Source: Byssovorax sp. (lineage in GTDB: Bacteria > Myxococcota_A > Polyangia > Polyangiales > Polyangiaceae). Taken from it: a stretch of 64,000 nt of DNA. The position numbers and the translations under genes are program-made. Positions 4,471 through 29,717 of this stretch are shown here, piece after piece. The stretch spans positions 62,001 through 126,000 of the forward strand of contig JANYGI010000113.1 in the NCBI GenBank assembly GCA_025362495.1, given 5' to 3'. The notes below the pieces were generated by a model. That model was not told the origin of the DNA. It ran no database searches and saw only the letters and a program-made list of their open reading frames with translations. Numbering within the stretch: the first letter of the stretch is position 1; each line of letters opens with the position of its first letter.

Positions 4471-5373
4471 CTAGTTCGAACCCTGGCACGTCTTGTCGAC
4501 GTAGCCGTCGACGTGCTCGCAGGCCGAGACGTCGTCGCCCGCCTTGAACGCGGTGCCCGCTTTGATGCAGTACTTGCCGGTGAGCAAGTGATCGCCGAGG
4601 CCGACGTCGGGGCGCACCTGCGAACATTCGAAGCCCGTCGGGCACTCGCAGAAGTTGAAGCCCGGCTCGAGGTCCTTCGCGCCGTCGGCGACGCCGCAGC
4701 GGCACGAGCAGTAGACCGACTCGTCGGCGCTGCGAGCGGACTTCTTGTTCGCGGTGCCCACGCACTGGCCGCACACCGACGACGTGGTCGGGGTATCGGT
4801 GCCGGGCACGCAGCAGCTCTTGTCCAGGTCCGTCTTCGGATTGGCGCCGGCCTGCTGGCAGTTGCCTTCCTTGTGGCAGACGAAGGACTTGAAGATCGAG
4901 ATGCTGTTGCTATCGCCCTCGATCGAATGAACGCAGTGGAATCCGTCCGGGGGAATCGTGCCCGACGTGCAGGTGCAGACCTTCCTGTTAGGGTCGCACT
5001 TCGTCCCGTTCGGGCAGTCGTCCGCTTCCGGCTTGCAGTCGTTGGCGAGCGTCGCGGCCTCGACGCACTTACCGAGGTTGGCGGCTTCGCAGGTCGTGGT
5101 GTCGTGGTAGTTGCAGAACGTCGGGGCGGCCTGGCCCAAGGGGCACGTGACGCGGCCCTGAAAGTGGTTCACGAGGCAGATGCGGGTCGAGCACTGGAAA
5201 GAGCGCGACTCGATGTTCTCGGCCGTCACCTTGAAGCCGGTGAAGTCAGCGTTGTACTCGTCTTCGGGGATGCACGGATCACCGATGCCCCCGCTCTGGC
5301 AGGCGAGAGGCAAAGCGCCGACGGCGCCGATGCTGAGGAGACCAAGGAGGCCAGCGAGGATGGAACGGGTCAT
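4471..5373 (-). CDS. Cysteine-rich lipoprotein
   Basis: 300 residues with a strong AAGGAG ribosome binding site. The N-terminus is a lipoprotein signal (LLGLLSIGAVGALPLACQSG) with the lipobox cysteine at about residue 25. The mature protein has more than twenty cysteines in short spaced clusters, such as CTCTSGTIPPDGFHC, CSCRCG and CECPTGFEC. The spacing recalls EGF-like or myxobacterial disulfide-rich surface repeats, but I cannot assign a defined fold. It is probably an outer-membrane-anchored, disulfide-stabilised surface protein. The gene is transcribed away from the motility locus and ends at tandem hairpins. Confidence 0.75.
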   Translation of the reverse strand: MTRSILAGLLGLLSIGAVGALPLACQSGGIGDPCIPEDEYNADFTGFKVTAENIESRSFQCSTRICLVNHFQGRVTCPLGQAAPTFCNYHDTTTCEAANLGKCVEAATLANDCKPEADDCPNGTKCDPNRKVCTCTSGTIPPDGFHCVHSIEGDSNSISIFKSFVCHKEGNCQQAGANPKTDLDKSCCVPGTDTPTTSSVCGQCVGTANKKSARSADESVYCSCRCGVADGAKDLEPGFNFCECPTGFECSQVRPDVGLGDHLLTGKYCIKAGTAFKAGDDVSACEHVDGYVDKTCQGSN

Positions 5374-5655
5374 CAGAACGTGCTCCTTCGGCGCGTGCTT
5401 ATGAAGCGGTGGTACGTACGGCGCGAAGACTTCTTGGGCGGTGCCGCCTGCGGGGGGACGCTAATCGATTGAGCGTCGAAGCGTCAACAGCGGAAGCGCG
5501 CATGACCGCGTTTTGCTCCAGGTTTCCTTCGACTGCCCGGGACGCGTCGCGGGCTCTCTTCTCGCGGGCGTGGCGACGACGGCTTGCCCAAGGTGCGCGT
5601 CGGGTCAGGTGTCGGAGCGCGGGTGGTTCGCCGTCGGGCCGCCGAAAAGCGCTGC

Positions 5656-5682
5656 TTGACAATGCGCGCTTGGCCTTATTAC
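5656..5682 (+). promoter_or_regulatory. Candidate sigma-70-type promoter of the glt locus
   Basis: A perfect TTGACA at 5656-5661 is followed after 15 bp by TATTAC at 5677-5682. The spacing is short, but the sequence stands out in this GC-rich region. It would give a leader of roughly 235 nt before the ATG at 5926. The rest of 5374-5925 holds the folded leader described next and the divergent promoter of the Cys-rich lipoprotein. Confidence 0.45.
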
Positions 5683-5737
5683 CATCCCCGCCCACGCGTT
5701 AGTATCCGTCGATTCTCATTGAAGTTTTTGGTCTGCA

Positions 5738-5785
5738 GCTCGTTTTCGAGAGCCCGTCGCGGTGACCGCGACGGCGAGAACGAGC
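5738..5785 (+). promoter_or_regulatory. Long stem-loop in the leader of the glt locus
   Basis: The outer stem is 11 bp (5738-5748 with 5775-5785, one G-U pair). After a 5-nt bulge comes a perfect 9-bp inner stem (5754-5762 with 5766-5774) closed by a TGA triloop. No T-tract follows, so it does not look like a simple terminator. It lies between the candidate promoter and the first motility gene, where a regulatory or stabilising leader RNA would sit. The function is inference. Confidence 0.5.
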
Positions 5786-5925
5786 CGCTCCAGAGGCCAA
5801 GCCGGGTAACAGCGAAGCTCTTTTTTCGAGCATCGCAAGCGGCACAAGAGGATGCGACTCGACGGGGCACGGTGCTCGACACTCAGCGCTCGCCCTCAAC
5901 CCTCCAGATTGCGAGGACACGATCC

Positions 5926-7656
5926 ATGCGGACCCGGCTGGCCACCATCTGCCTTCTAGCTTCCAGTTTGATCCTCGCGCCCGCGGCGGCAGAGGCGCAG
6001 GGCAAGAAACCCGCTGCTGCAGCAGCGAAGAAGGGCGCGAAGGACGACAAAAAGGTCGCCACCAAGCCCGGCGAGAAGCCCAAGGAGATCCAGCTCGAGG
6101 AAGAGCAGGAAGGCCCCGTCACCGCCGGGCAGATGACGGAGGAGGCCGCCCAGGGCAAGCGTCTGTTCGACGCCGAGCGCTGGAGCGAGGCCGCGCTCGT
6201 CCTCAAGCGTGTCGTCGACAACGAGACGGGCGACGACGAAGGCAACAAGCAGATCGCCCAGTACCACCTCGCGATCGCGCTCTACCGCCTCCAGTTCTAC
6301 CAGGCCAGCTACGGCATCTTCTCCTCGATCGCCGACAAGGCGAACCACCTGAAGTTCAACGAGACGCTCCTCTGGCTCTCGAAGCTCGCGACGCAGCTCC
6401 CCGAGCCCGCCGACATCATCGAGCGCGTCGGCAAGTACAAGACCGATCAGGTCGCGCGGTTCAACAACCCGCAGCAGCGCGATCTGTACTGGCAGCTCAA
6501 CTACCTCCTCGGCCGGTACAAGTACCGCAACCGCAACTACGAGGAGGCGATCAGCCTCTTCGAGAAGGTGGACAAGAAGAGCAAGTACTTCGTCCAGGGC
6601 CAGTTCTTCTCGGGCATCTCGTACGTGCAGCTCCGCAAGTCGGTCCCCGCGGTGAAGTCGTTCCAGCGCATCGTGCAGTCGATCGACGAGGGCACCGAAG
6701 GCGTCGAGGACGAGGCGCGCATGCGCGACCTCGCGTTCCTCTCGATGGCGCGCACGTACTACTCGGCCTCGGTTCGCCTCGACGACAACAACGTCCCGAC
6801 GATCGACTCGTCGAAGCTCTCCGCCGCCGTCAAGTACTGGAACCGCGTCGACGTCGCGAGCGAGTACTGGCTCGACGGCCTGTTCGAGCAGTCGTGGGCC
6901 TACTTCATGGCCGGCGATTACCCGCACGCCCTCGGCAACATCCACACGATCGAGGCGCCGTACTTCCCGAACTCGTTCTACCCGGAGGCCGACATCCTGA
7001 AGGCCGTCATCTCCTTCACGATCTGCCAGTACGAGGACGCGACCACGATCGTGGCGCGCATGAAGCGCAAGTACGAGCCGATCAAGAAGGAGCTCGAGGC
7101 CGTGCTCAACCGCTTCAAGGGCGAGGGCAGCGAGCAGCAGTTCTTCACCTTCCTGAAGGACGTGCGCGCCGGCAAGGCCAACCTCTCCCCGACGATCCGT
7201 CCCGTCGTCGAGAGCGCCCTCGCCGATCGTCAGCTCCTCCGCAACCTCGAGTACGTGCGCGTGCTCGACGAGGAGGACGCGCGCTTCAAGAAGGCGCCCG
7301 CGAGCTTCCGCAACTCGCCCCTCGGCGGCGACGTCACCGACGCGCTCAACCTCGCCCGCGAGCTCGCGACGCGCAACGCCGGCACGCTCGCCCGCGAGCG
7401 CTACCAGCGCAACCTCGACGAGCTCAACGAGCACCTCCGCGACGCATCGAAGATCCTGATCGACATCACGGCGGCCGAGCGCAACAAGCTCGACAACACC
7501 ATCGTCACCGGGCAGCTCTCGACGGCCGACTCGCTCACGTACGGCGTCGTCAAGCCCGACGACGAGCACGTCCTCTGGCCGTTCAACGGCGAATACTGGC
7601 GCGACGAGCTGGGCTTCTACCGCCAGGTCGTCGTGTCCAAGTGCGCGAACAAGTGA
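5926..7656 (+). CDS. Exported TPR protein, first gene of the Glt locus (GltC-like)
   Basis: 576 residues from the ATG at 5926, preceded by GAGGA; the frame is open further upstream but without a ribosome binding site. Signal peptide at residues 1-24 (LATICLLASSLILAPAAAEA), then an Ala/Lys/Glu-rich linker. TPR-like helical repeats fill the rest (EEAISLFEKVDKKSKYFVQG; SAAVKYWNRVDVASEYWLDG). It lies 44 bp before the gltD-like gene. In M. xanthus, GltC is a periplasmic TPR protein of similar size, so a GltC role is likely. TPR similarity alone cannot prove orthology. It would act as a periplasmic scaffold of the gliding apparatus. Confidence 0.72.
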   Translation: MRTRLATICLLASSLILAPAAAEAQGKKPAAAAAKKGAKDDKKVATKPGEKPKEIQLEEEQEGPVTAGQMTEEAAQGKRLFDAERWSEAALVLKRVVDNETGDDEGNKQIAQYHLAIALYRLQFYQASYGIFSSIADKANHLKFNETLLWLSKLATQLPEPADIIERVGKYKTDQVARFNNPQQRDLYWQLNYLLGRYKYRNRNYEEAISLFEKVDKKSKYFVQGQFFSGISYVQLRKSVPAVKSFQRIVQSIDEGTEGVEDEARMRDLAFLSMARTYYSASVRLDDNNVPTIDSSKLSAAVKYWNRVDVASEYWLDGLFEQSWAYFMAGDYPHALGNIHTIEAPYFPNSFYPEADILKAVISFTICQYEDATTIVARMKRKYEPIKKELEAVLNRFKGEGSEQQFFTFLKDVRAGKANLSPTIRPVVESALADRQLLRNLEYVRVLDEEDARFKKAPASFRNSPLGGDVTDALNLARELATRNAGTLARERYQRNLDELNEHLRDASKILIDITAAERNKLDNTIVTGQLSTADSLTYGVVKPDDEHVLWPFNGEYWRDELGFYRQVVVSKCANK

Positions 7657-7700
7657 CTCCGTAGGTCCGCTCTCTCGGTCTTTAGCGTGAAGGGTTGGGT

Positions 7701-10700
7701 ATGAAGACGAAGCATCGGAACTCGGTCTTGCTGAGCGCACTGCGCAGGGCCGCGGGCGCCCTGGCGGTGACCGCCGGCGCCGTGGTGGCAGCGGGGCCGG
7801 CATCGGCAGCCGACGTGTGCATCTCGCAGTCCGCGAAGGACGCGCTCGCGGCCTGTCCGGGAGGCAAGCTCGAGGCGTCGGCCGGCAAGAAGCCGCAGGT
7901 CAGCTTCAAGTCGGCGCCGTCGGCGATCAACCTGAAGAAGGGGGAGCAGCAGCTGAAGCCGAGCAACCCCTCGGCGTCCATGAACGCGGCGCAGCGCGAC
8001 GAGCGGCGCAACCGCCTCGCGGCGCGCTCGCGGCAGCTGCTCGTGACGGAGATCCAGGGCCTCGAGAGCCTGTACACCTCCACGCCGAAGAACGCGCCGG
8101 ATCGGCCGAAGCTGATGCGGCGCCTCGCGGAGGGCTACGTCGAGCTCGAGTCCGCGGCCTTCCGCGACAAGACCGAGAACGGCATGAAGGCCGACGAGGC
8201 CAAGAAGAAGGATCCGGGCAAGGCCGCGGGCTTCGCCGCCGAGGCCGGCAAGGCCGACAAGATCCTCGGCGCCGCGCGGCAGGCGGCGATCAAGAACTAC
8301 ACGAACCTCAAAGATCAATACCCGAAGTGGTGCCAGAACAACAACGCGTCGAACCCGGCGCAGAGCACCGGCTGCACCGACGAGGTTTTGTACTACCTCG
8401 CGTACGAGTACGAGCAGGCGCTCAACCTCGACCAGGCGCGCAAGGTGTACCTCGAGCTCATCCAGAGCTGGCCCAACTCCAAGTTCATCCCCAACGCGTA
8501 CCTCGCGTTCGGTGAGCTCTTCTTCAACGAAGCGCAGGGTGATCCGACGAAGTGGGCCCTCGCCGAGCAGTCGTACTCCGAGGTCATCAAGTACCCGGCG
8601 CCCGAGAACAAGGTCTGGGGCTACGCCCACTACAAGCTCGGCTACGTCTACTGGAACAAGGGCGACTTCGCCCGCGCCATGAGCGAGCTGAAGAAGACGA
8701 TCGACTACGGCACCCAGTACTCGTCACTGCCGAACGCCGAGCAGCTCGCCACCTCGGCGCGCCGCGACATCATCCCGATCTACGCTCTCGCCGGCGATCC
8801 GAAGCGCGCCTACGACTTCATCAAGCCGCTCTCGGGCGACTCGGGCGTCAACAGTGAGAAGACGTTCAAGCTGATGGACGATCTCGGGCAGAGCTACCTC
8901 GACACCGGCCACTACGCCGAGGGTATCGTCCTCTACACCGACCTGAAGAACCGCGATCGCGGCCCCAAGGCGTGCGTGTACCAGGGCCACATCGCCGAGG
9001 CGACGCTGGCGATGAAGTCCGGCAACAAGGACCTCATCATCGGCGAGCTGAACAGCCAGCTCGATACCCACAACAAGTTCGTCGCCGACCAGCAGCCCGC
9101 CGACGCGAAATTGAAGTGCGCGAACATCACCGCCGATCTGCTCGCAGAGACGGCGATGGCGTGGCACCTCGAGGCCGTCGGTTCCGGCGGCGTCCGCGGC
9201 ACCGGCGACAAGAAGACGATGGCGCTCGCCGCGCAGATCTACGCCAACCTGGTCAAGACCTTCAAGCAGGACGACTTCGCGAAGTTCGAGTTCCCCCGCA
9301 TCGTGAAGGAGGACTGGCCGAACATCTTCAAGATCAAGTACCAGATGGCCGATCTGCTGTACTTCCAGAAGGATTGGGCCAAGTGCGGTCCGGCGTTCGA
9401 CGCCGTCGTCGCCGAGGATCCTTCCGGTCCGACCGCGCCCGAGGCGGCGTACGCGGCGGTGCTCTGTTACCAGAACATCTACACCGAGACGCACAAGGAC
9501 GGCTCCGACAAGAAGGGCGGAGGCAACCTCCCCGGCGGCAAGGGCAAGAAGGGCGATACGAAGGCGTCGGAGAAGGCGAAGTTCGCTCCGAAGGACTTCA
9601 CCGACAACCAGAAGGGGATGCTCACCGCCTTCAACCGCTACGTCTGTTACATCAAGCCGCCCGCGGGCGACAAAGAGGCCAACGACAACTACGTCGAGGT
9701 CAAGTACGCCCGCGCCCGCACCTACTTCGAGGCGCAGCACTGGGAAGAGGCCGCTCTCGCGTTCCGCGATGTCGCGCTGAACTACGCCGACAAGGACGTC
9801 GGGGTCTACGCGTCGCAGCTCTACCTCGAGTCGCTCAACGTGCTCGCCAACAACGTCGAGCCGGGTCACCCCTCGTGCCTCGACGACATGGCGGACGACG
9901 TCCCGAAGTTCGTCGATCTCTACTGCAAGGGCGGCAAAGAGAAGGAAAACGCCGAGCAGTGCGGGACGCTCCTCGGCATCCAGCGCGACATCGAGCGTCT
10001 CAAGGCCGAGGCCCTCGTGAAGGCGGCCGACGCCGGTGGCGCCGAAGCTTCGAAGCAGTACGAGAAGGGCGCGCAGGCCTACCTCGAGCTCTGGAAGAAG
10101 TATGGCGAAGGCCCGTGCGAGGCCAAGCAGCCCTCGTGCGCGCGCAACGACGAGGTCCTGTACAACGCGGCCCGCGCCTTCCAGGCGGCGCGCCTCATCG
10201 CCAAGTCGATCGCGGTTCGCAAGATCCTGATCGACCCGAAGTACAACCTCAACACGACCGAGCTCGCGAAGAAGGCCGTTTACGAAATCGGCGGTAACTA
10301 CCAGGCGATCGCGGTCTACGACGAAGCCGCCAACTGGTACGAGAAGTTCGCGGCGACGAACGCCAGCGCCGAGAAGGCCCCCGAGGCTCTCTCCGATGCC
10401 ACGGTCCTTCGCCTCGGTCTCGGTCAGGAAGACCAGGCGATCAAGGACGCCGACCTCTTCAACAAGAACTTCGGTTCGAAGAAGCCGGCGCAGACGGCCG
10501 CGATCGCCTTCGCCATCGGCGCTCACTACATCGATCGCGAGGACTGGGGCGAGGCGCGCAAGCGGCTCACCAGCGCGATGAGCCAGATCGACAAGAACGC
10601 GACGCTCGATGTTCAGATCCAGGCGCACGCCATGCTCGGCCTCGTGTTCACGAAGCTCAACAGCGCGTCGAACGCGGTCACCGAGTACAACAAGGTTCGC

Positions 10701-11555
10701 GGCCTGTTCAAGGATCCGACGGCCTCGGTCAAGAAGATCACCGACGGCGGCGGCGACGAGCGCAAGGTCGCGAAGGCGCTCACCGCGGTCGGCGAGGCGA
10801 TGTTCTTCTTCGCCGAGCAGCGCCGCAAAGAGGTCGATAAGATCAAGTTCCCCGAATACAAGGGATCGGGGACGCGCGAGGACGTGCTCAAGCACGTCAA
10901 CACCAAGGTCACCGATTGGGTGAAGAAGAAGCGCCCGGCGATCGAAGAGGCTGCCGGCGAGTACAAGAAGATCGTCGACATGCAGCCCGCGCCCCCGCCG
11001 AAGTGGGTCATCGCGGCCGGTTCGCGCGTCGGTCAGATGTGGGGCAAGTTCGTCGCCGAGTTCCGCGCCGCTCCGATTCCGAAGGAGTGGAAGGGTCACG
11101 GCGTCGTCCCGGGCACCGATGGCCTGACGTACGACGAAATCCGAGGCGAGTACTACGCGAAGCTGGACGAGGCGAGCGAGCCTCAGAAGCAGACCGCAAA
11201 GGGCGCGTACCAGACCTGCCTCAAGTACTCGGTCCAGTTCCAGTACTTCGACGAGTACTCGCGCCGCTGTGAGGAGTGGCTCTCGAAGAACTTCGGAGCC
11301 GAGTACCACCTCATCGACGAGTTCCGTGGCTCGCCGTCGCGCGTGAACTCGGGTCTCAGCGACGCGCCCGCGCCGCTGAATCTCGACGGGACGACGTACC
11401 ACGTCGACGCGCCGGCTCCGGCTGACGCGCCGAAGGACGACAAGGGCGCGCCGGCGGCCGACAAGGGCGATGCGGCAGGCGACAAGCCCGCCGACAAGGC
11501 CGGCGTCTCGAAGGAAAAGTCGGCGCTCGACAAGGCCAAGATCAAGAAGAAGTGA
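7701..11555 (+). CDS. gltD: Large exported TPR protein, GltD/AgmU-like
   Basis: 1,284 residues. The start is the ATG at 7701 with GAAGGG six bases upstream; a TTG two codons earlier is less likely. Signal peptide at residues 1-36, ending near GPASAAD. The rest is a solenoid of degenerate TPR-like units (EALNLDQARKVYLELIQSWP; AALAFRDVALNYADKDVGVY) with a Lys/Gly-rich insertion near residue 615 and a disordered Asp/Lys/Ala tail. Length and position match M. xanthus AgmU (GltD), a periplasmic component of the gliding complex, and the next gene matches GltE. The stop lies 14 bp before the next ATG, indicating one operon. Confidence 0.8.
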   Translation: MKTKHRNSVLLSALRRAAGALAVTAGAVVAAGPASAADVCISQSAKDALAACPGGKLEASAGKKPQVSFKSAPSAINLKKGEQQLKPSNPSASMNAAQRDERRNRLAARSRQLLVTEIQGLESLYTSTPKNAPDRPKLMRRLAEGYVELESAAFRDKTENGMKADEAKKKDPGKAAGFAAEAGKADKILGAARQAAIKNYTNLKDQYPKWCQNNNASNPAQSTGCTDEVLYYLAYEYEQALNLDQARKVYLELIQSWPNSKFIPNAYLAFGELFFNEAQGDPTKWALAEQSYSEVIKYPAPENKVWGYAHYKLGYVYWNKGDFARAMSELKKTIDYGTQYSSLPNAEQLATSARRDIIPIYALAGDPKRAYDFIKPLSGDSGVNSEKTFKLMDDLGQSYLDTGHYAEGIVLYTDLKNRDRGPKACVYQGHIAEATLAMKSGNKDLIIGELNSQLDTHNKFVADQQPADAKLKCANITADLLAETAMAWHLEAVGSGGVRGTGDKKTMALAAQIYANLVKTFKQDDFAKFEFPRIVKEDWPNIFKIKYQMADLLYFQKDWAKCGPAFDAVVAEDPSGPTAPEAAYAAVLCYQNIYTETHKDGSDKKGGGNLPGGKGKKGDTKASEKAKFAPKDFTDNQKGMLTAFNRYVCYIKPPAGDKEANDNYVEVKYARARTYFEAQHWEEAALAFRDVALNYADKDVGVYASQLYLESLNVLANNVEPGHPSCLDDMADDVPKFVDLYCKGGKEKENAEQCGTLLGIQRDIERLKAEALVKAADAGGAEASKQYEKGAQAYLELWKKYGEGPCEAKQPSCARNDEVLYNAARAFQAARLIAKSIAVRKILIDPKYNLNTTELAKKAVYEIGGNYQAIAVYDEAANWYEKFAATNASAEKAPEALSDATVLRLGLGQEDQAIKDADLFNKNFGSKKPAQTAAIAFAIGAHYIDREDWGEARKRLTSAMSQIDKNATLDVQIQAHAMLGLVFTKLNSASNAVTEYNKVRGLFKDPTASVKKITDGGGDERKVAKALTAVGEAMFFFAEQRRKEVDKIKFPEYKGSGTREDVLKHVNTKVTDWVKKKRPAIEEAAGEYKKIVDMQPAPPPKWVIAAGSRVGQMWGKFVAEFRAAPIPKEWKGHGVVPGTDGLTYDEIRGEYYAKLDEASEPQKQTAKGAYQTCLKYSVQFQYFDEYSRRCEEWLSKNFGAEYHLIDEFRGSPSRVNSGLSDAPAPLNLDGTTYHVDAPAPADAPKDDKGAPAADKGDAAGDKPADKAGVSKEKSALDKAKIKKK

Positions 11556-11569
11556 GGAGGGTGAGAGCC

Positions 11570-13060
11570 ATGAAGAAGAGCATGTTGGTGGCGGCCGCCC
11601 TCCTCGTCTGGGCGACCGGTTGCAGTGGTCCGGCGGGCGAAGGTCCCGGCGGCAAGGTCCCGGGGAAACCCACGGGTCCGACGGACAGCAAAGGGAACGA
11701 GGTGTCCGCCGCGGCGGTCAACAAGTTCAACGCGGCGCTGGACATGATGACGGCCCACGACAAGGCCGGCGACTGGAACGACGCCGCGTGCACGGCGAAC
11801 GCGGCAGCGTTCGTCGAGGCGGCGAAGGAGCAGGGCGACAAGACGTTCGGCGAGGCGCTCTACAACGCCGGCTTGGCGAGCCAGCGCTGCAAGAAGGACG
11901 CGGAGGCGAAGGCCTTCTTCAAGCAGGTCCTCGACAAGGATCCGAAGTTCCACCGCGCGCGGTCGCAGCTCGCCCTCTACGCATTCGCGGAGTCGGGCGA
12001 GAAGAACTTCGACCAGGCCATCTCCGAGATGCGCCAGGCTGCGATCACCGATGCGCAGTTCAAGAACGTGGAGGCCCTGGTGAACCTGGGGATGCTCTAC
12101 ATCAAGCGGAACAACCAGACGGCCGACAGCGAAGGCCCGACGGATCTCGCGCGCGCCAAGAAGTACATTCAAAGCGCGCTCGCGGTCGACGACGGGTTCA
12201 TGCCCGCCTTCAACCAGCTCGCCATTCTCTACATGGAGACGGCGAACCAGAAGGCGGGTCGCGACGCCAAGCAGAAGACGGCCACCAGCGGCAGCAAACA
12301 GAAGAAGGTCGACTCTCAGGCGCTCGAGCTCGCTGCGCTCGTGTGCTCGCAGGCCGTACGCAAGAACCCCAAGTACGCGCCGGTTCACAACACCGCCGGG
12401 ATGATCCAGGTCGAGCTCGGGAACTTGAACTCCGCCGTCGGTGAGTTCAACAACGCGCGCACGATCGATCCGACCTTCTACGAAGCGCAGATGAACTACG
12501 CCGCCGTGAACCTCCAGTTCCGCGGCTTCGGGCAGGCTGAAGAGGCCTACCGCGCTGCGCTCAAGATGCGTCCCGCGGACTACGACGCTCACCTCGGCCT
12601 CGCGCTCGCGCTGCGCGGCCAGATCGACGACTCGAACTTCGACAAGAAGGTCGCTGAAGCAGCTGCCGAGATCGATGCGGCGAAGAAGGCGGCGCCGGAT
12701 CGCGCCGAGACCTACTACAACGAAGCGATCCTCACGCAGGAGTACAAGGCGAAGGCCGGCGGCAAGGGCGGCGAGGGCGAGCTGGTCAACGCCAAGGGGC
12801 TCTTCGGTCAGTTCGTCCAGAAGGCTGGCAGCGCCGCGGAGTTCGCCGACGCCGTGAAGCGCTCGAAGGACCGGATCGCCGAAATCGATCAGATCATCGA
12901 CTTCAACAAGCAATCCGACGCGCAGCGCAAGGCGGCCGAGGCCGATCTCAAGCAGAAGGCCGCCGAGGCCGAAGCCAAGGACGGCGCCGAGGGCGAGGCC
13001 GGCGACAAGGGCGACAAGGGCGCCGGGGCCGGCGACAAGAAAGACGCTCCGAAGCAGTAG
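11570..13060 (+). CDS. gltE: TPR lipoprotein, GltE/AglT-like
   Basis: 496 residues. The ATG at 11570 follows a GGAGGGTGAG ribosome binding site that overlaps the end of the previous gene. The signal is a lipoprotein type (MLVAAALLVWATGCSG) with the lipidated cysteine at about residue 19. TPR units follow (ALYNAGLASQRCKKDAEAKA; GRDAKQKTATSGSKQKKVDS is a loop between repeats). The C-terminus is a Lys/Ala/Asp/Gly-rich tail. In M. xanthus, AglT (GltE) is a TPR protein needed for A-motility and encoded next to AgmU, as here. The likely location is periplasmic, lipid-anchored. A strong hairpin follows the stop. Confidence 0.78.
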   Translation: MKKSMLVAAALLVWATGCSGPAGEGPGGKVPGKPTGPTDSKGNEVSAAAVNKFNAALDMMTAHDKAGDWNDAACTANAAAFVEAAKEQGDKTFGEALYNAGLASQRCKKDAEAKAFFKQVLDKDPKFHRARSQLALYAFAESGEKNFDQAISEMRQAAITDAQFKNVEALVNLGMLYIKRNNQTADSEGPTDLARAKKYIQSALAVDDGFMPAFNQLAILYMETANQKAGRDAKQKTATSGSKQKKVDSQALELAALVCSQAVRKNPKYAPVHNTAGMIQVELGNLNSAVGEFNNARTIDPTFYEAQMNYAAVNLQFRGFGQAEEAYRAALKMRPADYDAHLGLALALRGQIDDSNFDKKVAEAAAEIDAAKKAAPDRAETYYNEAILTQEYKAKAGGKGGEGELVNAKGLFGQFVQKAGSAAEFADAVKRSKDRIAEIDQIIDFNKQSDAQRKAAEADLKQKAAEAEAKDGAEGEAGDKGDKGAGAGDKKDAPKQ

Positions 13061-13330: not shown

Positions 13331-13360
13331 TTGACCCGGTCCCCTCGCTGGTTGTACACT
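13331..13360 (+). promoter_or_regulatory. Candidate promoter for the second part of the glt locus
   Basis: TTGACC at 13331-13336 and TACACT at 13355-13360 are separated by 18 bp, 40 bp before the ATG of the small exported protein. Together with the hairpin at 13093 this suggests that the small-protein/gltG/TPR-lipoprotein/gltI genes have their own start of transcription. Confidence 0.5.
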
Positions 13361-13399
13361 GTTACTGTAATAGCAGCGCAAGATTTCGAGGAGACTGAA

Positions 13400-13666
13400 A
13401 TGCAAAGGTCAACCCGTTGGGGCATGGCGGTGGTCGCCGCGGTGAGCGTGTTCGCGATTACGTCAGAGGCTCTGGCGCAGGGCGCGGACAAGAAGAAGAA
13501 GGACGACGGCTACGGCTACGAGTTCTCGGACGATCCGCTGAACGCAGGCGGCTTCGGTCCGAACGACGCGACGATTCGCGTCCGCCCGGGCCCGGTCCGT
13601 ACGACTCTGATTCGCCCCCGCACGTCGTTCGTGCCGGAGATGCTCAAGTCGGTCGAGAACCTCTAA
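13400..13666 (+). CDS. Small exported protein in the Glt locus
   Basis: 88 residues with a GAGGAG ribosome binding site. Signal peptide at residues 1-28 (WGMAVVAAVSVFAITSEALA, cleaved before QGADKK). The mature part is about 60 residues: a Lys-rich start, an Asp/Tyr/Gly stretch (GYGYEFSDDPLNAGGF) and an ordered C-terminus (RPRTSFVPEMLKSVENL). It lies between the gltE- and gltG-like genes, the slot of gltF in M. xanthus, but I cannot show homology. Probably a small periplasmic accessory of the gliding machine; the role is inferred from position only. Confidence 0.65.
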   Translation: MQRSTRWGMAVVAAVSVFAITSEALAQGADKKKKDDGYGYEFSDDPLNAGGFGPNDATIRVRPGPVRTTLIRPRTSFVPEMLKSVENL

Positions 13667-16178: not shown

Positions 16179-17099
16179 ATGAAGCTTGGCAACGTCGCCC
16201 TGGTGGCCTCTCTCTTCATCACGAGCTTCCTCGGAGCCGGCTGCAGCCGGAACCGGCAAGAGGCCGTCATTCTCGCCAACCAGGCGGATTCCGAGGTGAA
16301 GCTCAGCCCCGAGAGCGCCATCAACAAATACGAGCAAGCGACCCGGATGGACCCGACCAACCACCGGATCTTCCAGAAGCTCGGCATGGCCTACAAGAAG
16401 CGCGAGGACTGGGACAAGGTCGCGTCGACCATGGCCCGCGCCGCGTCGCTCGCGCCGAAGTTTGCGAACTACTGGCTCGAGCGTGGGTACGCGCTCGAGA
16501 TGCAAGCGAAGAAGAAGACCGGTGTGTCGTGGGAGGAGGCGAAAGAGCCGCTCCAGAAGTGCATCGAGAACGATCCGAACTACGCCGATTGCTACGAAGA
16601 GCTCGGCGGCGTGTTCCTTCAGACGGACGACGAGCAGAAAGCGCTCGACAACTTCACGAAGGCGATCGAGCACGACCCGAACGAGGTCCGCTACTACAAC
16701 GCGCTCGCCGATCTCTACATCCGCCTCGGCTACGTCAAGGAAGCCGAGCAGGTGTTGAAGGAAGGCAAGTCGTTCGCGAAGCCGGGCGATAAATCGCTCT
16801 TCGGCCTGCACGAGCTGCTCGCGCAGGTCTACCAGGATCGAGGTTCGCTGCCTGAAATGGCGACGGAGCTCGAGGCCGCGAAGGCCGTCGCCGGCACCGA
16901 GGGGCCCGAGTCGGTGCAGGTCCTGTGGGACCTCGGGAGCACGTACGCGAAGCTGACCCCGCCGCGCACGGCGGAGGCCATTCAGATGCTGAAGGGCTTC
17001 AGCACACGGGCCTGCAAGGGCGCGAAGGCGGCGAGCTACAAGAGCCAGTGCGAGGGCGCGCAATCGCTCGTGACCCAGCTCGGCGGGAGCATGCAGTAA
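16179..17099 (+). CDS. TPR lipoprotein between gltG and gltI
   Basis: 306 residues. The ATG at 16179 follows AAAGGTGAG; the long upstream open frame is a shadow. Lipoprotein signal VASLFITSFLGAGCSRN with the cysteine at about residue 22. At least four clear TPRs follow (ALDNFTKAIEHDPNEVRYYN; KEPLQKCIENDPNYADCYEE), plus Cys residues near the C-terminus. Probably a periplasm-facing lipid-anchored scaffold of the gliding machine. In M. xanthus this interval contains gltH, a barrel protein; this gene is not a barrel, so the slot is filled differently here. Confidence 0.75.
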   Translation: MKLGNVALVASLFITSFLGAGCSRNRQEAVILANQADSEVKLSPESAINKYEQATRMDPTNHRIFQKLGMAYKKREDWDKVASTMARAASLAPKFANYWLERGYALEMQAKKKTGVSWEEAKEPLQKCIENDPNYADCYEELGGVFLQTDDEQKALDNFTKAIEHDPNEVRYYNALADLYIRLGYVKEAEQVLKEGKSFAKPGDKSLFGLHELLAQVYQDRGSLPEMATELEAAKAVAGTEGPESVQVLWDLGSTYAKLTPPRTAEAIQMLKGFSTRACKGAKAASYKSQCEGAQSLVTQLGGSMQ

Positions 17100-17192: not shown

Positions 17193-20100
17193 ATGGATCT
17201 AGCGCAGCGTCTGAATCATCTCGAGTCGGTTCGTGATTGGCAGGGACTCGCCGACGAGCTCGAGCGAGCCATCCCCGCGGAGACTTCCGCGGCGGTCAAA
17301 GCCTCGTACCACCTGAAGCTCGGGCGCGTGCTCGAGGACAAGTTCCTCCTCGCCGTCAAGGCGCTGAAGCACTTCCAGGACGCGTTCAAGCTGAATCCGG
17401 CGCTGATCGAGGCGCTGCAGCAAGCGCGCGCGATCTACTGGGCTCTCGGCAAGACGAACATGGTGCAGAAGCTCCTCGAGCTGGAGCTGAAGAGCGCGGC
17501 GGAAGGCCCCGCGCAGACCGCGCTCCTGCTCGAGCTGGGCGACGTGCTCACCGATCTCGGCGATCACGAGAAGGCGGCGTCGACGTACGCGCGCGCGCTC
17601 GCGTCGTCGGGCGGCGCGAGCGACGCGGCCCGCGACGGGCTCGCCGACACTCAGGTCGACGAGGGCTCGGCTCCCGGGCACCTCGAGGCGCTGGTCGAGA
17701 TCGCCGGCGCCGAGCACGACCCGGCCGCGCGGTCGCGGCTCTATCTGCGCGCGTCGCGGATCGCGAAGCGCTTCTCGCCCACCGAGGTCGAGGGGCTCCT
17801 CACCCGCGCCTACGAAGCCGATCCGAGCGACAAGCAGGCTGCGACGACGTTCGAGCAGCTGATGATGGAAGAGGATCGCGCGCAGGCGATCGCCGAGACG
17901 CAGCGGCGCGTCCTCTCCGCGAGCAACGGCGCCGATCGCGCGGCGAACGCCTTCCGCTTCGGCGTGCGCTGGGCGACGCGCCACCAGAACCACGAGCTCG
18001 GCGCGCAGCTGATCCAGAGCGCCTTCGAGGCCGACCCCGACAACGAAGCGGCGTTCTCTTACCTGCGCGAGCTGTGGGGCACGAAGCAGGGCGAGTGGGA
18101 TCGCGTGATCAAGCTGATCGAGGCCGCGGCCGACGCGAACCCGACGTCGCCCTTCCTCGTTGCGCAGGCCGGCACGATCGTCTGGCGTCAGGGCGGCAAT
18201 TTGATGCGCGCGCGCGGCTGGTTCGAGCGCCTCGCGGCGATCGCGCCGGAGCACGCGACGCTCCGCGCCTTCGAAGCGCAGATCGGCGAGCCCGTCGGGG
18301 CAGTCGAGGCGGGCGCCGCGCTCCCCGCGGCCGAAGAGGCACCGATCGACGTCGTCGTCGCGTCCGAGCCGCCGCCGCCCGTCGCCATGCTCGAGTCGGA
18401 GCCGCCGCCCGCCCCGGCGAAGGCTGCCTCCGAGCCGCCGCCCGCCCGCCTGCACAAGCCCGAGCCCGTCGTCGCCGAGGTCGCGCCGGTCTCGGCGTCC
18501 GTGGCGGTGAGCGAGCCCGCGCCGGTCAGCGTGGCGCCTCCTGCGGCCGTCGCGGCGCCGGTCAGCGTGCCGCCGCCTGCGCCTGCGGCTGCCGCCCCTG
18601 CGGCGGAGCCCGTCGCTGCTGCCAAGCCCGCCGTCAACGTCGACGAGCTCATCGCCAAGGGCCAGAAGCAAGAGCAGGCCAAGCGCTACAACGAGTACGT
18701 CAAGACGCTGATCGAGATCGCCGAGGCCGTCGACTCGCCGGCCGAGAAGATCGAGTATTACGCGAAGGCCGCCGACCTCTACACGACGAAGTTCTCCAAC
18801 GCGGCCGAGGCCGTGAAGTGCTTCGAATCGATCCTCGCGCTCGACGGCGAGCACGCGGCGGCGATCGACTTCCTGCGCCAGAGCTACGAGAAGCGGCGCG
18901 ACTGGGAGAAGCTCATCGGCCTGATGAAGCGCGAGGCCGGGGCGATGCCCGAGGGCGCGGCGCGCGGCGCGAAGTTCCTCGAGGTCGCGAAGCTCGCCAC
19001 CGAGCGCGTGAAGAAGCCCGAGGTCTGCATCGATCTCTGGAACGAGGTCATCGCCAACGATCCGGAGAACGCCGAGGCGCTCAACGCTCTCGCGGGTCTG
19101 CACGAGCGCGCGAAGGACTGGCCCGCGCTCGCGGCCGTGCTGCAGAAGCAGGTCGACTCGACCTACGACAGCGCGGTGAAGCAGGTGCTGCTCGGCAAGC
19201 TCGGCGCGCTCTACGGCGAGCGCCTCAACGACGACGAGGCCGCGGTAGAGGCCTGGCGTCAGCTCCTCGCGCTCAACCCGCAGGATCGCAAGGCGCAAGA
19301 GGCGCTGAAGAAGAAGTACCTCACGCTCGGCCGCTGGGACGATCTCGAGGTGTTCTACGCCGAGAGCGGCAAGTGGGACGAGTTCATCCGCGTCCTCGAG
19401 ACGCAGGAGGCGAAGGAGACGATCGACCAGGCGAAGATCGGCCTGCTCGTCAAGATCGCCCAGCTGTGGATGGTGCAGAAGGGCAAGCCCGATCGCGCGG
19501 CCAAGGCCTACGAGAAGGTGCTGAGCATCGACGCGCAGCACCTCGAGGCAGCCGAGGCGCTGATCCCGCTTTACGAGCAGGCGAACAACCCCAAGGGCCT
19601 CGCCGGCGCGATCGAAGTGAAGCTGCTTCATCCGCAGGACGACGGCGCGAAGCTCGAGCTCTACCGCCAGGTCGCCGGCCTCTACGAGACGAAGCTCAAG
19701 GAGCCGCAGCGCGCCTTCGAGCGCTACCTGTCCGCCTTCGAGATCGCGCCCGGCGACGAGCGCTGCATCGACGACGTCGAGCGCGCCGCACGCGCCACCG
19801 CGGGCTGGGACGCGCTCATCACCGCGTACTCCGCGGCGATCACCAGGGCCGAAGGCGAGGCCGAGCACGAGCTCGCGATCGCCCTTCGCTTGCGCCTCGG
19901 CCGCGTGCTCCGCGACGAGGTCAAGCGCGTCGACGACGCGCTCGCGCAGTTCCGCGCCGTCTACGACGCCGACGGCGAGAACGACGCGGCGATCAGCGCC
20001 CTCGAGCAGCTCTACCGCGACACCGCGCGCTTCGGCGAGCTCCTCGGGATCTACGAGAAGAAGCGCGAGCTCGTGACCGAGGTCGAGGCCAAGAAGCAGA

Positions 20101-23100
20101 TCCAGTACGCGATCGCCGATCTCTACGAGAAGGAGATCAAGGATCCGAAGAGCGCGATCGCCACGTACATCCAGGTGCTCGACGACGAGCCGATGGATGC
20201 GCAGGCGCTCGCCGCGCTCGACAAGCTCTACCTCGAGCAGCAGGAGTGGGAGCCGTACGTCGAGGTCCTGCGCAAGCGGATCGAGCTCGACGTCAGCGAG
20301 GGCGTGCTCATCGATCTCAAGCTCCGCCTCGGCGGCGCGCTCGAGAGTCACCTCGGCGATCCGGCCGGCGCGCTCGACAACTACCGCGAGATTCTCCTGA
20401 TCGATCCGGGCAACGACGCCGCCCGCGCGGCGCTCGAGGCCATGCTCGGCCGCGAGGATCTGCGCGCCGACGCCGCCGGCATCCTCGAGGAAATCTACGA
20501 AGGCCGCGGCGACTGGGAGAAGCTCATCCAGGCGCTCGAGATCCTCGCGGCCTCCGAGAGCGACGTCGCGGGGCGCGTCGGCCTCCTGCGCAAGGTCGCG
20601 CGCACGGCGGCCGAGAACCTCGCGGATCTCGGCCGCGCCTTCGACGCGCAGGCCCGCGCGCTCAAGGACGATCCCTCGAACGCCGACACCCGCGCCGAGC
20701 TCGAAGCGCTCGCCGAGAAGTCGGGCGCGTGGGATCGGCTCGACGCGATCTTCAGCGAGATCGCGCAGGGCATCAGCGACGCTCGCCTGGCGCGCGAATA
20801 CTGGATGCGGCTCGCCGGCATCCACGAGCGCCTCGGCAAGATCGAGGAGGCCGCGAGCGGTTACAACCGCGTGCTGTCCATCGATCCGGCCGACCACGAG
20901 GCCCTCGCCGCGATGGACGCGCTCTACCGCCGCACCGAGCGCTTCGCCGATCTCGTCGGCGTCTTCCGGCGGCGGATCGAGCTCGCCGGCGAGGGGCCGG
21001 AGCGCGAGACGCTCTACGCCCAGATGGCCGAGGTCTACGAGCAGAAGCTCGGCAAGCCCGAGGACGCGATCGCCGCCTACCGCGAGGTGCTCAGCCTCGA
21101 CGAGACGAGCCATGTCGCGCTCACGGCGCTCGACGGCCTCTTCACGCGCCAGGCGATGTGGAACGAGCTCGCCGAGAACCTCGAGTCGCAGCTCCGCCTC
21201 GCGATCGAAGACGACGATCAGATCCGCCTCATGCTCCGCCTCGCCGCGCTGCGCGAGTCGCGCATGAGCCTCGTCGAGTCGGCCATCGACATCTACAGCC
21301 AGGTCCTCGAGCGCGAGCCCGGCAACGTCGAGGCCCTCGCGGCGCTCGAGCGCCTCGGCCTCCTGCCCGAGCACGAGATCCCGATCGCCGAGATCCTCGA
21401 GCCGCTCTACCGCCAGTCCGGCGACTTCGCCAAGCTCGTGGGCGTGCACGAGGTGCAGGTCCGAAGGAGCGAAGATCCGGGCCGCCGCGTCGAGCTCTTG
21501 CATCAGATCGCCACGCTGCACGAGGACGCAGGCGGCGATCTCAGCGCGGCGTTCGACACCTTCGCTCGCGCGCTGTCGGAGGACCCCGCGTCCGAGACGA
21601 CGCAGGACGGCCTCGACCGCCTCGCGCGCGCCACGGGTCGCTTCGCCGACCTCGCGCGCGTCTTCGAAACGCTGGCGGCGCGCCAGGCCGAGCCCGAGCT
21701 CGCGAGCACGCTCTTCACCATGAGCGCGCGCGTCTACGAGAACGATCTCGCCGACCTCGACAGCGCCGTTCGCCACTACCGCAAGGTGCTGGAGATCGAC
21801 GCCAAGAACCTCCCGGCCGCCGAGTCGCTCGACCGCATCTTCCGCGGCGCGGAGCGCTACCAGGAGCTGTCGCAGATCCTCCAGCAGAAGGCGGAGATCC
21901 TCGACGAGATCAACGACAAGAAGTCGGCGCTCTTCCAGGCCGCGTCGATCGAGGAAGAGATCCTCGAGCGTCACGATCAGTCGATCGCCGTCTACGGCAA
22001 GGTCCTCGAGCTCGACTCGGAAGACCTCCGCGCCATCGACGCGCTGATCAAGCTCTACCTCGGGCTCTCGCGCTGGACCGACCTCCTCGCCGTGTACGCG
22101 AAGAAGGCCGATCTCGTCACGGACGCCGAGGAAAAGAAGCTGATCTACTACCAGATCGGCGCGGTCTACGAGCGCGAGCTCGGCGACGTGGCGCGCTCGA
22201 TCGACACCTATCAGCGAGTGCTCGAGATCGATCCCGACGATCTCCAGGCGCTGGGGCGCCTCGACGTTCTCTACCAGACCGCGCAGAACTGGCAGGAGCT
22301 GCTCAGCGTCCTCCAGCACGAGGCCGAGCTGGCGCAGGATCCGGCCGAGGGGATCAGCTACCAGTACCGGATCGCCGAGCTCTACGAGAAGCACCTCGAC
22401 GACACCACGCGGGCGATCGAGCTCTACCGTGATCTCCTGCAGCAGATGCCGGATCACGCGCCGACGCTCGAGGCCCTGGAAGGCATCAAGAGCGGCGTCA
22501 AGGATCCCCTCGGCGCGGCGCTCGTCCTCGAGCCGATCTACGACGGCGTCGGCGAGTGGCAGAAGCTCATCAGCGTGCTCGAGGTCCAGGTCAAGTCGGC
22601 GGAGGATCCCTTCGCGCGCGTCGATCTGCTCCACCGGATCGCGCGGCTCCACGAGGAGATGCTCACCGACCACCGCTCGGCCTTCGAGACGTACGCGCGC
22701 GCGGTCGCGTTCGACATCACCAACGAAGACTCGCTCCATAACCTGGAGCGGCTCGCCATGGCCGTCGGCCGCTGGCCCGACGTCGCCGCGCTCTACGACG
22801 CCGAGCTCGACAAGCTCTCGGAGGATCCGGGTCGCTTCGTCGAGCTCGGGCTCCGGCTCGCGCAGATCTTCGAGACGCAGCTGGAAGACGTCGAGAACGC
22901 CGTCATCCGGTACCGGCGCGTCATCGCGGCGGACCCGGAGAACCACGCGGCGATCTCCTCGCTCGATCGGCTCTTCACGATGACGGAGCGCTGGCCCGAG
23001 CTCGTGCAGATCCTCGCCCGTGAGGCCGAGATCGGGCAGAGCCCCGACGAGATCCTCGAGTTCAAGTACCGGCTCGGCCTCGTCCACCAGAGCCGGCTCA

Positions 23101-26100
23101 GCGATCTCTCGTCGGCGATCGCGGCCTACCGCGACGTGCTCACGGCGGCGCCGGAGCACCACCAGACGCGCGAGGCCCTCGAAGGCCTCTTCGCTGCTGG
23201 GGTGCAGCAGATGGTAATCGGCGAGATCCTCGAGCCGCTCTATCAGGCCTCAGGCGACTGGGAGAAGCTCGCGGGCGTGCTCGAAGCGCTGCTCGCGCAC
23301 CTCACCGACGCGGCGTCGCGCCTCGCGATGTACTACCGCCTCGGCGAGCTCCAGGAAGAGCGGCTGATCGCGCTCGACGGCGCGCTCGACGTGTTCGTGC
23401 GCGCCGTGAAGGAGTACCCGACCGACGAGAAGACGCTCGAAGAGGTCGAGCGGCTCGCCGGCAGCACCGACGGCGGCTGGGAGAACCTGGCGAACGCCTA
23501 CGCCGACGTGCTCGGTCTCCACGCCGAGAAGGCGGTGCAAGCGGCGATCGGCAAGCGCCTCGCGCGCGTCTTCGAGGAAGACCTCGGCGACGTGCAGAAG
23601 GCCGAAGAGACCTACCGCTACGTGCTCAGCGTCGAGGCACTCGACGTCGAGGCGCTGACGAACCTCGACCGGATCTACTCGTCGATCGAGCAGTACCCGG
23701 AGCTCGCGCAGACGCTCGAGCAGCGCATCAAGGCGACGACCGAGCCCTATGAGCTCGTCGATCTCCACAACCGGCTCGGCCAGATCTACGAGGAGCGCTT
23801 GAACGAGCCGGATCACGCGATCCGCATCTTCCGCCGCGTCTTCGACGATCTCGACAAGGCCAACGAGCTGGCCATCTTCGCGCTCGAGCGCATCTACGGC
23901 GCCAAGGGCGCGTGGACCGACCTCAAGGTCGTGCTCGATCGCGAGCTCGAGAACGCCGGCGGCGACACGCAGGAGGCCGACATCCGCGCCAAGATGGCGC
24001 ACCTCCTGTCGGGTCACCTCAATGACATCCCCGGCGCGGTCGAGACGTGGAAGCGCGTCCTCGAGCTGCGCGGCGAGGACCACGAGGCCCTCGGGGCGCT
24101 CGCCGATCTCTACGAGCGCGTCGAGCAGTGGGCCGAGCTCTGCGACGTGCTCGAGCGCCACTACGACATCGCGAGCGACGACGTCGCGCGCGTCGAGGTC
24201 CTCCTCCGCCGGGCCAAGCTCTTCAGCGAGCGGCTCGGTCGCGACGACTCGGCGCTCGACGACTACAACCGCGTGCTCGACATCGACTACGCCAACTCGC
24301 ACGCGCTCTACGCGATCTCGGAGATCTGGCGTCGCCGCAACGATCCGCAGGAGATCGTGACCTCGCTCCACCAGACGGTGGATCGCGCCGCGGCCGCTCT
24401 GCCCGCCGAGAACCTCGTGGCGATCTTCCGCGAGCTCGGCACGATCTACCAGTCGACGCTCGCGCAACCGTACGACGCGATCGACGCGTGGCGCCGCCTG
24501 CTCGGCGTCGATCCGCGCGACTTCGAGGCCATGGCCGCGCTCGAGAACCTGCTCCGCGCCGAGGAGCGCTGGGTCGAGGTGATCGACGTGAAGATGGGCC
24601 GCGCCCAGGCCTACGAGGACCCGCAGGAGAAGATCCGCGAGTACCTCGAGGTCGCGGCGATCTGGGAGCACCAGGTCGGCGAGAAGGACAAGGGCACGCC
24701 GGCCTACGAGAAGATCCTCGAGCTCGACGGCACGCACGATCAAGCGTTCTTCGCGCTCGAGCTGCTCCACGGCGCGGCGCGCCGGAGCGAGCCGCTGATA
24801 GAGCTCTACCTCGCCCGCCTCGACACGCGCGAAGAGGTCAAGGACAAGACGACCATCCTCCGCAAGGTGGCCAAGGTCTTCGAGGAGCAGCTCGAGGATC
24901 GCGCGCAGGCGTTCGACGCGCTGCTCACCGCCTTCGAGCTCGACTTCTCCGACATGGAAGTGGTGCGCTACCTCGAGCGGATGTCGCAGGCCACGAACCG
25001 CTGGCCCGAGCTCGTGCAGACCGTCAACGCCTGGCTCGGCCAGCAGACGGATCCGCTCCAGAAGATCACGCTGAGCCTGCGCCTCGCCAAGTGGTACGCC
25101 GAGGATCTCGGGCACCCCGAGTACGCGCAGGGCTACTACCAGCAGGTCCTCACGCTCGATCCGAACAACGTCGCCGTGCTCCGTCAGATGGCCAGCTTCT
25201 TCAAGAAGACGGGCCGCTGGCAGGAGCAAGGGCAGACGCTCACGAGCGCGCTCAACGTCGCCGTCACCGACTTCGATCGCAAAGAGATCCTCACCGACCT
25301 CGGCGAGGTGCTCGAGCGTCACATGGGCGAGGTCGATCAGGGCCTCGGCTTCTACAAGCGCGCCCTCGATGTCGACCAGCTCCACCTGCCGGCGCTCGAA
25401 GCCCTCGAGCGCATCTACGCCGAGCGCAACCTCTCGGCCGAGCTCGTCGAGATCCTCACGCGCAAGGCCAGGGCCCTCACCGAGCCCGAGCTCATCGGCA
25501 ACACCAAGCTGCGCACCGGCGGCCTCTACGAGACCGCCCTGCACCAGCCCGAGAAGGCCGGTCAGGTCTACCGCGAGGTGCTCGAGCTCGACGCGTCGAG
25601 CCTCCTCGCCATGCGCGGCCTCGAGCGCGTGTACACCGCCAGCGCGCAGTGGCCCGACCTCGTCAAGGTGCTGGAAATGCAGCTCGACGTCGTCACCACC
25701 GAGCGCGAGCGCATCGACGTGCTCCTGAAGATCGCCCAGATCCAGGAGGAGCAGTTCCTCAAGCCGGATCTGGCCGCGGCTCGCCTCGAGCAGGTCGTGG
25801 AGATCGACGGGACGCACGAGCTCGCGCTCGAGTCCCTGGAGCGCTGCTACCGCCGCCTGCGGCAGTGGCTCGATCTCATCAACACCTTCGATCGGCACAT
25901 CAACGCCACGCACGATCGCCAGAAGAAGATCGATCTCTGGAGCGCCACGGCCAAGGTCTACGCGGAGGAGGTCCAGGACCTCGACCACGCGATCGACTCG
26001 TGGCTCAACATCATCGAGCTCGAAGACACCAACATCCCGGCCCTCGACGCCCTCGCCAAGCTCTACGAGAAGCAGGACGATGCGGCCAAGGCCATCGAGT

Positions 26101-28823: not shown

Positions 28824-29717
28824 ATGCAGATCGATCCGGTCGTCGCTTCCGCCAAGCCTGGCTCTGCCGCTTCTCGCTCGAACGCGGCGGAACTCCCGCG
28901 CGCGAACCGCGTGATCCACATCCCCGACTTCACGCTCGACGGCGATCTCACCGCCGAGCAGAGCGACTTCTTCGAGACCTTCGGCTTCATCCGCTTCAAG
29001 CGGTTCGTCTCGCGCGAGCGCGCGCAATCGCTCTACCAATCGGTGCTCGAGATCGACGCCAAGCTCGTCGCTGACGGCCGCGAGAAGGTCAACGGCGTGC
29101 CGCTCATCTTCGGCAAGCGCGCCGATGGGACGCGCTACGTGCAGCGCATCCCCTTCGGGTCGCTCCAGTCCGACGCGTTCCACACCTTCCTCCAGGATCC
29201 GCGCTTCCAGGGCATCACGCGGACGGCGGGGCAGGGGTATCGCATCGCCGAAGACGAGCGCGACGGCCTCGTGATCAACCGCTTCCGCAACGAGCCGGGC
29301 GCGAAGTACAAGCGCCTCGGCTGGCACACCGACAGCCTCCGCGACCTCTTCTATTTCGAGAAGCCGCGCCGCTACCTCAACGTCGGCTTCTACCTCACCG
29401 ACTCGCCCGCCGAGGTCGGCGGCCTGCGCGTGCTCCCGTGCACGCACAACCAGCCCATCAGCTCGATGCTCACGCGCAAGATGCACTTCGTCAACGACGT
29501 CCCCGATGTTGACGAGCTGGCGATCACGGCCGAGGCCGGCGATCTCACCATCCACGACGGGCGCATCTGGCACCGCACCGCGCTCTCGACGCTCACCGGC
29601 GACGCGAGCGAGCGCTGCGTCTCGTACCTGCCGCTCATGGATGGGCCGCTGAAGCGGAAGACCGAGAGCAGCAAGATGCCCTTCTATTTCCGGCTCAAGG
29701 GCCTGGTCGGGTACTGA
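28824..29717 (+). CDS. Phytanoyl-CoA dioxygenase (PhyH)-family oxygenase
   Basis: 297 residues with AAGGAG seven bases before the ATG. A Fe(II)/2-oxoglutarate-dependent oxygenase fold is suggested by the PhyH pattern: N-terminal FFETFGFIRFKRFVS, the HxD iron ligands in LGWHTDS (about H168, D170), the distal histidine in DGRIWHRTA (about H250), and GGLRVLPCTHNQ between them. The likely reaction is hydroxylation of a lipid-like or acyl substrate; the substrate is unknown. The stop overlaps the start of the TetR gene by one base (TGATG), so the two are translationally coupled. Confidence 0.83.
   Translation: MQIDPVVASAKPGSAASRSNAAELPRANRVIHIPDFTLDGDLTAEQSDFFETFGFIRFKRFVSRERAQSLYQSVLEIDAKLVADGREKVNGVPLIFGKRADGTRYVQRIPFGSLQSDAFHTFLQDPRFQGITRTAGQGYRIAEDERDGLVINRFRNEPGAKYKRLGWHTDSLRDLFYFEKPRRYLNVGFYLTDSPAEVGGLRVLPCTHNQPISSMLTRKMHFVNDVPDVDELAITAEAGDLTIHDGRIWHRTALSTLTGDASERCVSYLPLMDGPLKRKTESSKMPFYFRLKGLVGY

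Follow-up and report, generated by a model that had tools for sequence, protein, structure and literature searches.

The analysed window is a stretch of 64,000 nucleotides from Byssovorax sp.; the assembly around it comprises 10.8 Mb and is 96.6% complete. On the plus strand the window contains a 23-kb run of genes headed by a gltC-like gene, and from their spacing these genes presumably form a single glt operon. The best named NCBIfam matches of three of the genes are GltC (265.4 bits, equivalog cut-off 450), GltE (74 bits, cut-off 225) and GltG (327 bits, cut-off 650), all under their equivalog cut-offs. The genes were assigned from NCBIfam, Pfam (TPR and FHA domains occur among the operon genes) and comparison of gene order and size with M. 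xanthus, as far as described in the available part of PMC3169522. According to the same part of that paper, gltC of M. xanthus belongs to cluster G2, separate from gltD–J in cluster G1, whereas here gltC leads the gltD–I-like run. The nearest relatives of the window's GltC, among the best 80 of 91 matches, come from Minicystis, Sorangium and Polyangium, and many of the related proteins can be aligned from residue 1 of the gltC-like protein. The features of the locus are as follows.

4471–5373, minus strand: divergent cysteine-rich gene, secreted or lipoprotein-like, sharing the intergenic region with gltC
5656–5661, plus strand: −35 element TTGACA
5680–5685, plus strand: −10 element TACCAT
5686–5693, plus strand: C/G-rich discriminator, as read from the sequence
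5694–5925, plus strand: putative 5' leader, whose sequence and length vary past about 5733
5702–5733, plus strand: conserved block rich in T, GTATCCGTCGATTCTCATTGAAGTTTTTGGTC, at roughly +9 to +38/+40 in the predicted transcript
5725–5729, plus strand: run of five T within the block, at an offset of 69 bases from the −35 start
5738–5785, plus strand: stem-loop in two parts, an outer one of 11 bp including one G.U and an inner one of 9 bp with a TGA loop, specific to this genome
5913–5917, plus strand: Shine-Dalgarno sequence GAGGA, with a similar GAGGA in most of the relatives' start regions compared
5926–7656, plus strand: gltC-like gene, 576 aa, TPR, at the head of the presumed glt operon
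7695–28649, plus strand: remainder of the presumed operon, comprising the six genes below
7695–11555, plus strand: probable gltD-like gene, by size and order (PMC3169522, available part)
11552–13060, plus strand: gltE-like gene (NCBIfam GltE, below cut-off)
13331–13666, plus strand: ORF of 111 aa
13787–15844, plus strand: gltG-like gene (NCBIfam GltG, below cut-off)
ending at 17099, plus strand: TPR gene
17193–28649, plus strand: giant gene of 3818 aa, probably gltI-like, by size and order (PMC3169522, available part)

The cysteine-rich gene lies upstream of gltC and divergent to it in 65 of 74 loci, even at about 45% GltC identity. It has no match in Pfam or NCBIfam, and is a candidate for an unnamed partner of the Glt machinery.

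The original prediction described a promoter candidate TTGACA-N15-TATTAC in front of the first motility gene. Its −35 hexamer stands, but the real −10 element, the one kept by the relatives, is TACCAT at a spacer of 18 nt (TAACAT, TATCAT or TAGCAT in other loci). TTGACA-N18-TACCAT matches the consensus at 10 of 12 positions and is the sole promoter-like site within 5380–6000, shuffled sequences yielding 0.0 ± 0.1. From the position of −10, transcription is expected to start at approximately 5692–5694. The C/G-rich discriminator would be compatible with growth-rate control as it occurs in other bacteria.

Relatives were collected by a contig scan that gave 75 distinct GltC loci from the best 80 of 91 matches; the examined set likewise comprises 75 loci, the window having been added and L066, which lacks upstream DNA, dropped. 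The 700 nt upstream of gltC were searched for TTGACA-N17–19-TANNNT. The promoter is present in 63 of the 75 loci, and the spacer is 18 in all 63, although 17–19 was permitted. The controls were close to empty: shuffled stretches gave a mean of 0.1 loci, reversed ones 1, and the 700 nt downstream 0. No promoter was found in the 700 nt upstream of gltC in the other 12 loci. The loci are partly redundant, 58 promoters being reduced to 49 at less than 80% identity. The whole 10.8-Mb genome contains only four TTGACA-N17/18-TANNAT sites, the glt promoter among them, and no comparable T-rich block lies downstream of the other three. In three very distant loci with the promoter (L070, L071, L068) the start region carries CCACG...CGTGTGG repeats, possibly forming a stem.

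The promoter is followed by a T-rich block. In broad terms it reads TnTCnnnGATTnTnnTTGAGTTTTTSG. The consensus derived from 26 loci picked for clear conservation is AGTATCTnTTGATTCTCATTGAGnTTTTTGG; in distant loci looser forms are seen, such as TTCTCGATTTTGTTGAGTTTTTCG in L170, and conservation beyond the family is loose. The T fraction is 0.40 in the block vs 0.17 on each flank, and in 60 of the 63 loci it is higher in the block than downstream. Pairwise identity, calculated over 1935 pairs of diverged loci, reaches 0.467 within the block compared to 0.375 and 0.378 in the flanks; we place no weight on the value of 0.502 between −10 and the block, as this segment is just 14 bases long and C-rich. 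A run of at least four T begins at an offset of 67–72 from −35 in 41 of the 63 promoter loci, while the distance from −35 to the ATG varies: 142 nt in L049, 185 in L003, 219 in L006, 270 in the window and 272 in L002. Hence the block is anchored to the promoter and not to the gene start. No clear dyad is visible in it by eye, and the fold from the predicted start to the block end has a mean z of 0.08 over 31 loci, no better than shuffles. The block is asymmetric, unstructured and held in fixed register to the promoter. A leader peptide was considered and rejected: the Polyangium leaders differ in length by single bases (219, 218, 217), which speaks against translation, and no ATG-led frame common to the leaders is seen by eye.

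Profile R2, describing the promoter and the block by sequence only and trained on 28 loci, was used to search 143 genomes of the class at the threshold E ≤ 0.01. It matched 23 places in 22 genomes, and at 19 of these a GltC match is present in the fetched stretch, the exceptions being L174, L175, L177 and L181. Five of the 19 (L169, L170, L172, L176, L179) represent other families of the order, and their sequences were not in the training set. Under the strict filters 121 of the 143 genomes have no R2 match, a count that mixes absence of gltC with loss of the site. The pattern combining the promoter with the block core is found in 18 of 98 genomes of the family, one copy in each. In all of 14 genomes, selected because they have the glt site, the block-only profile R1 scores 24.2–31.3 bits there, and the next best match anywhere in them is 16.2 bits or less. 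At one mismatch the 13-mer core occurs at up to six places per genome, and the extra places are taken as chance or unrelated words; with the 19-nt core, the window's own genome gives, at up to three mismatches, one match besides the site itself, with three mismatches.

Taken together, the unusually strong conservation of the promoter and of some thirty T-rich bases at the beginning of the transcript in related myxobacteria points to a control site not described before, which would be read at the onset of transcription. How the genes of the gliding machinery are switched on seems to have been little covered in publications. The available part of PMC3169522 reports qRT-PCR of deletion strains, and a term search of it did not find the word "promoter"; no mention of a glt leader element was found in the part of the literature that was searched. 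The suggestion of the original prediction that the leader is regulatory is retained in part: a control feature is probable, consisting of the conserved promoter and about 40 first nucleotides of the transcript, but the stem is not a conserved element of it. Antitermination, taken loosely, may still be involved.

Our preferred reading, held tentatively and at somewhat short of an even chance, is that the promoter-anchored block in the initially transcribed region controls glt initiation or early elongation. The start of the operon is marked by a consensus-like promoter of the sigma70 type, TTGACA-N18-TANNAT. The T-rich block would then be read, in the non-template strand or in the nascent RNA, while RNA polymerase exits the promoter, the reader being either the polymerase itself or a factor bound to it. 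By setting promoter escape or pausing, the block would determine the output of the 23-kb operon, and the large hairpin would be a genome-specific piece of a variable leader. This level of control is favoured because the block is situated near the departing polymerase, is asymmetric, lacks conserved structure and is single. We infer that the block is transcribed, and likewise the level at which it acts and the direction of its effect. The T-rich stretch could also be kept merely for melting or for lack of structure. A conserved start region locked to the promoter offers a precise 30-bp target for mutation and a handle for finding its reader.

A close rival, although in itself rather unlikely, is that the block is a DNA operator just past the start site, bound by a transcription factor that is dedicated to this one target. 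It agrees with the position of the block next to the promoter and with base-level conservation beyond composition; moreover, the minus-strand core AATGAGAATC may resemble a Fur half-site. However, a single strong match per genome makes the block unlike an operator common to a regulon, such as that of Fur, where several sites per genome are expected; one strong match was seen in each of the 14 genomes with the site, and a multi-gene operator finds no support. The operator reading is further weakened by the lack of a clear dyad, and by the fact that a TetR gene at 29717, beyond the operon, is the sole regulator gene recognised among the scanned neighbours.

Ranked third, and less probable than an operator, is a role at the RNA level, with the block serving as a single-stranded U-rich site at the 5' end of the mRNA, recognised by an RNA chaperone, ribosomal protein S1 or a small RNA and affecting stability or translation. 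The predicted 5' end is indeed U-rich and has no conserved structure, but the block keeps its distance to the promoter rather than to the start codon, and its 19-nt core has no complementary copy in the genome at up to three mismatches, although a short seed would escape such a search. Neither does the block co-vary with the Shine-Dalgarno region. The leader had been proposed to control translation, and the RNAalifold output gave the idea that the block masks the Shine-Dalgarno sequence; in 20 chosen loci the pairing of matched blocks and Shine-Dalgarno regions (−13.2) is no better than that of mismatched ones (−13.8; permutation p 0.80), so that translation control by such pairing finds no support and the idea was rejected as a general one. 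Masking may hold in Sorangium and L012, where z is −2.4 to −3.7 relative to shuffled blocks.

More doubtful still is an operon-specific element, kept across the myxobacterial order, that loads or retains a factor on the polymerase and so makes transcription of the 23 kb processive, with neither an RNA structure nor a dedicated NusG paralog. The block has a parallel in ops/RfaH and in further NusG paralogs of specialised function (LoaP, TaA, UpxY), where likewise a short conserved sequence is transcribed close to the promoter of a single very long operon; the difference is that no ops sequence is seen here and only one gene of the NusG family was found. A dedicated NusG paralog was discarded for the window's genome, in which one PF02357 gene was found; one is also found in 11 of the 12 genomes searched. 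The twelfth, G086 (locus L200), encodes a second protein with the NusG domain (70.9 bits).

Several other known systems were compared with the T-rich block of the preferred reading. The sigma70-dependent pause of lambda pR' and lac similarly involves an initially transcribed sequence at a fixed distance from a sigma70 promoter, but the block is further downstream. The criterion for this pause, given in PMC7876045, is a −10-like sequence 11 bp downstream of −10; the window has no −10-like hexamer at that distance, the sequence at 5691–5696 being CCCACG. Pausing by NusG of the Bacillus type shares the T-rich initial transcript, and its signature is TTNTTT in the non-template strand, according to PMC7819879. 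The block of the window (5702–5733) does not contain TTNTTT and differs in having five T between G's; six or more T occur in a few relatives, e.g. L002 and L030. The boxA/nut sites are likewise U-rich linear elements, and in the window a hairpin comes next. However, in an order-mate, G210, the rrn leaders have a boxA-like CTCTGAAAACTGAA that the block does not resemble, and no boxA match is seen in the block by eye against the two rrn leaders of this one genome, 16S having been found in one of seven genomes. The boxA reading was abandoned on this comparison. A riboswitch-like or attenuator leader finds no RNA family, conserved structure or intrinsic terminator here: no Rfam family reaches the gathering score anywhere in the window or comes near it in the leader, and there are no terminator-like sites in 5380–6000.

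Finally, it is very improbable that the leader is regulated through the large hairpin as an RNA structure, as the original prediction suggested, since comparison with relatives gives no general support for a conserved leader RNA structure. The hairpin as such was described correctly. The outer stem is formed by GCTCGTTTTCG (5738–5748) and CGAGAACGAGC (5775–5785), 11 pairs with one G.U, and the inner stem by CCGTCGCGG (5754–5762) and CCGCGACGG (5766–5774), nine perfect pairs closing the loop TGA; no T-tract follows, and 140 nt separate the stem from the ATG at 5926. The 70 nt containing the hairpin have z −4.14, stable for their base composition, and the leader 5694–5925 folds with z −2.63, equalled by one of 200 shuffles; the window is GC-rich, however, and in absolute terms such a fold is common in it, with 285 of its 6393 70-nt stretches reaching −36.6 kcal/mol or better.

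Other stems lie nearby in L010 (z −2.37), L012 (z −2.17) and Polyangium, but the mean z of the 70 nt after the block in 37 loci is −0.14, no better than shuffles. Over 31 loci the mean z is −0.14 at the 5' end, −0.12 after the block and 0.07 in the upstream control, and z below −1.5 is found after the block in four of the 31 loci vs three of 31 in the control. A small 5'-terminal hairpin occurs in some loci (z −2.72 in L012, −1.47 in L038) and was dropped as a general feature given the mean at the 5' end. On nine aligned leaders just 52.5% of the window's stem pairs are formed, vs 33–39% for slid versions, though a structure taken from one aligned sequence tends to beat slid versions anyway, and the RNAalifold consensus energy is only −0.98 kcal/mol. 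On the other side, 12 of the 20 stem pairs have changed on both sides in the nine leaders, compared to a shuffled mean of 7.7 (5 of 500 as high). Thus compensatory changes appear to be largely, but not cleanly, lacking in homologues of the stem, all loci in this comparison being from outside the genus of the window. We conclude that the stem is lineage-specific, in a fast-changing part of the leader, with a slight residual chance that a hairpin at this position matters even though its sequence changes. For GC-rich genomes the lesson is that a striking hairpin can be incidental and a plain T-rich stretch the conserved signal.

The hairpin was also considered as a dispersed repeat and rejected, the 71-nt stretch having one full match in its own genome and otherwise weak partial ones. 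The inner palindrome CCGTCGCGGTGACCGCGACGG (5754–5774), at up to three mismatches, has 28 forward and 20 reverse matches genome-wide, itself on both strands included, and its backward control two forward and two reverse.

Another sequence, CCGAAAGCGA(GGA), is found within the 25 nt directly upstream of the start codon in L003, L005, L010, L011, L012, L013 and L049. It is absent from the window and is near letter-for-letter the same across genera, and in most of these loci the region may fold into a small hairpin upstream of the Shine-Dalgarno sequence.
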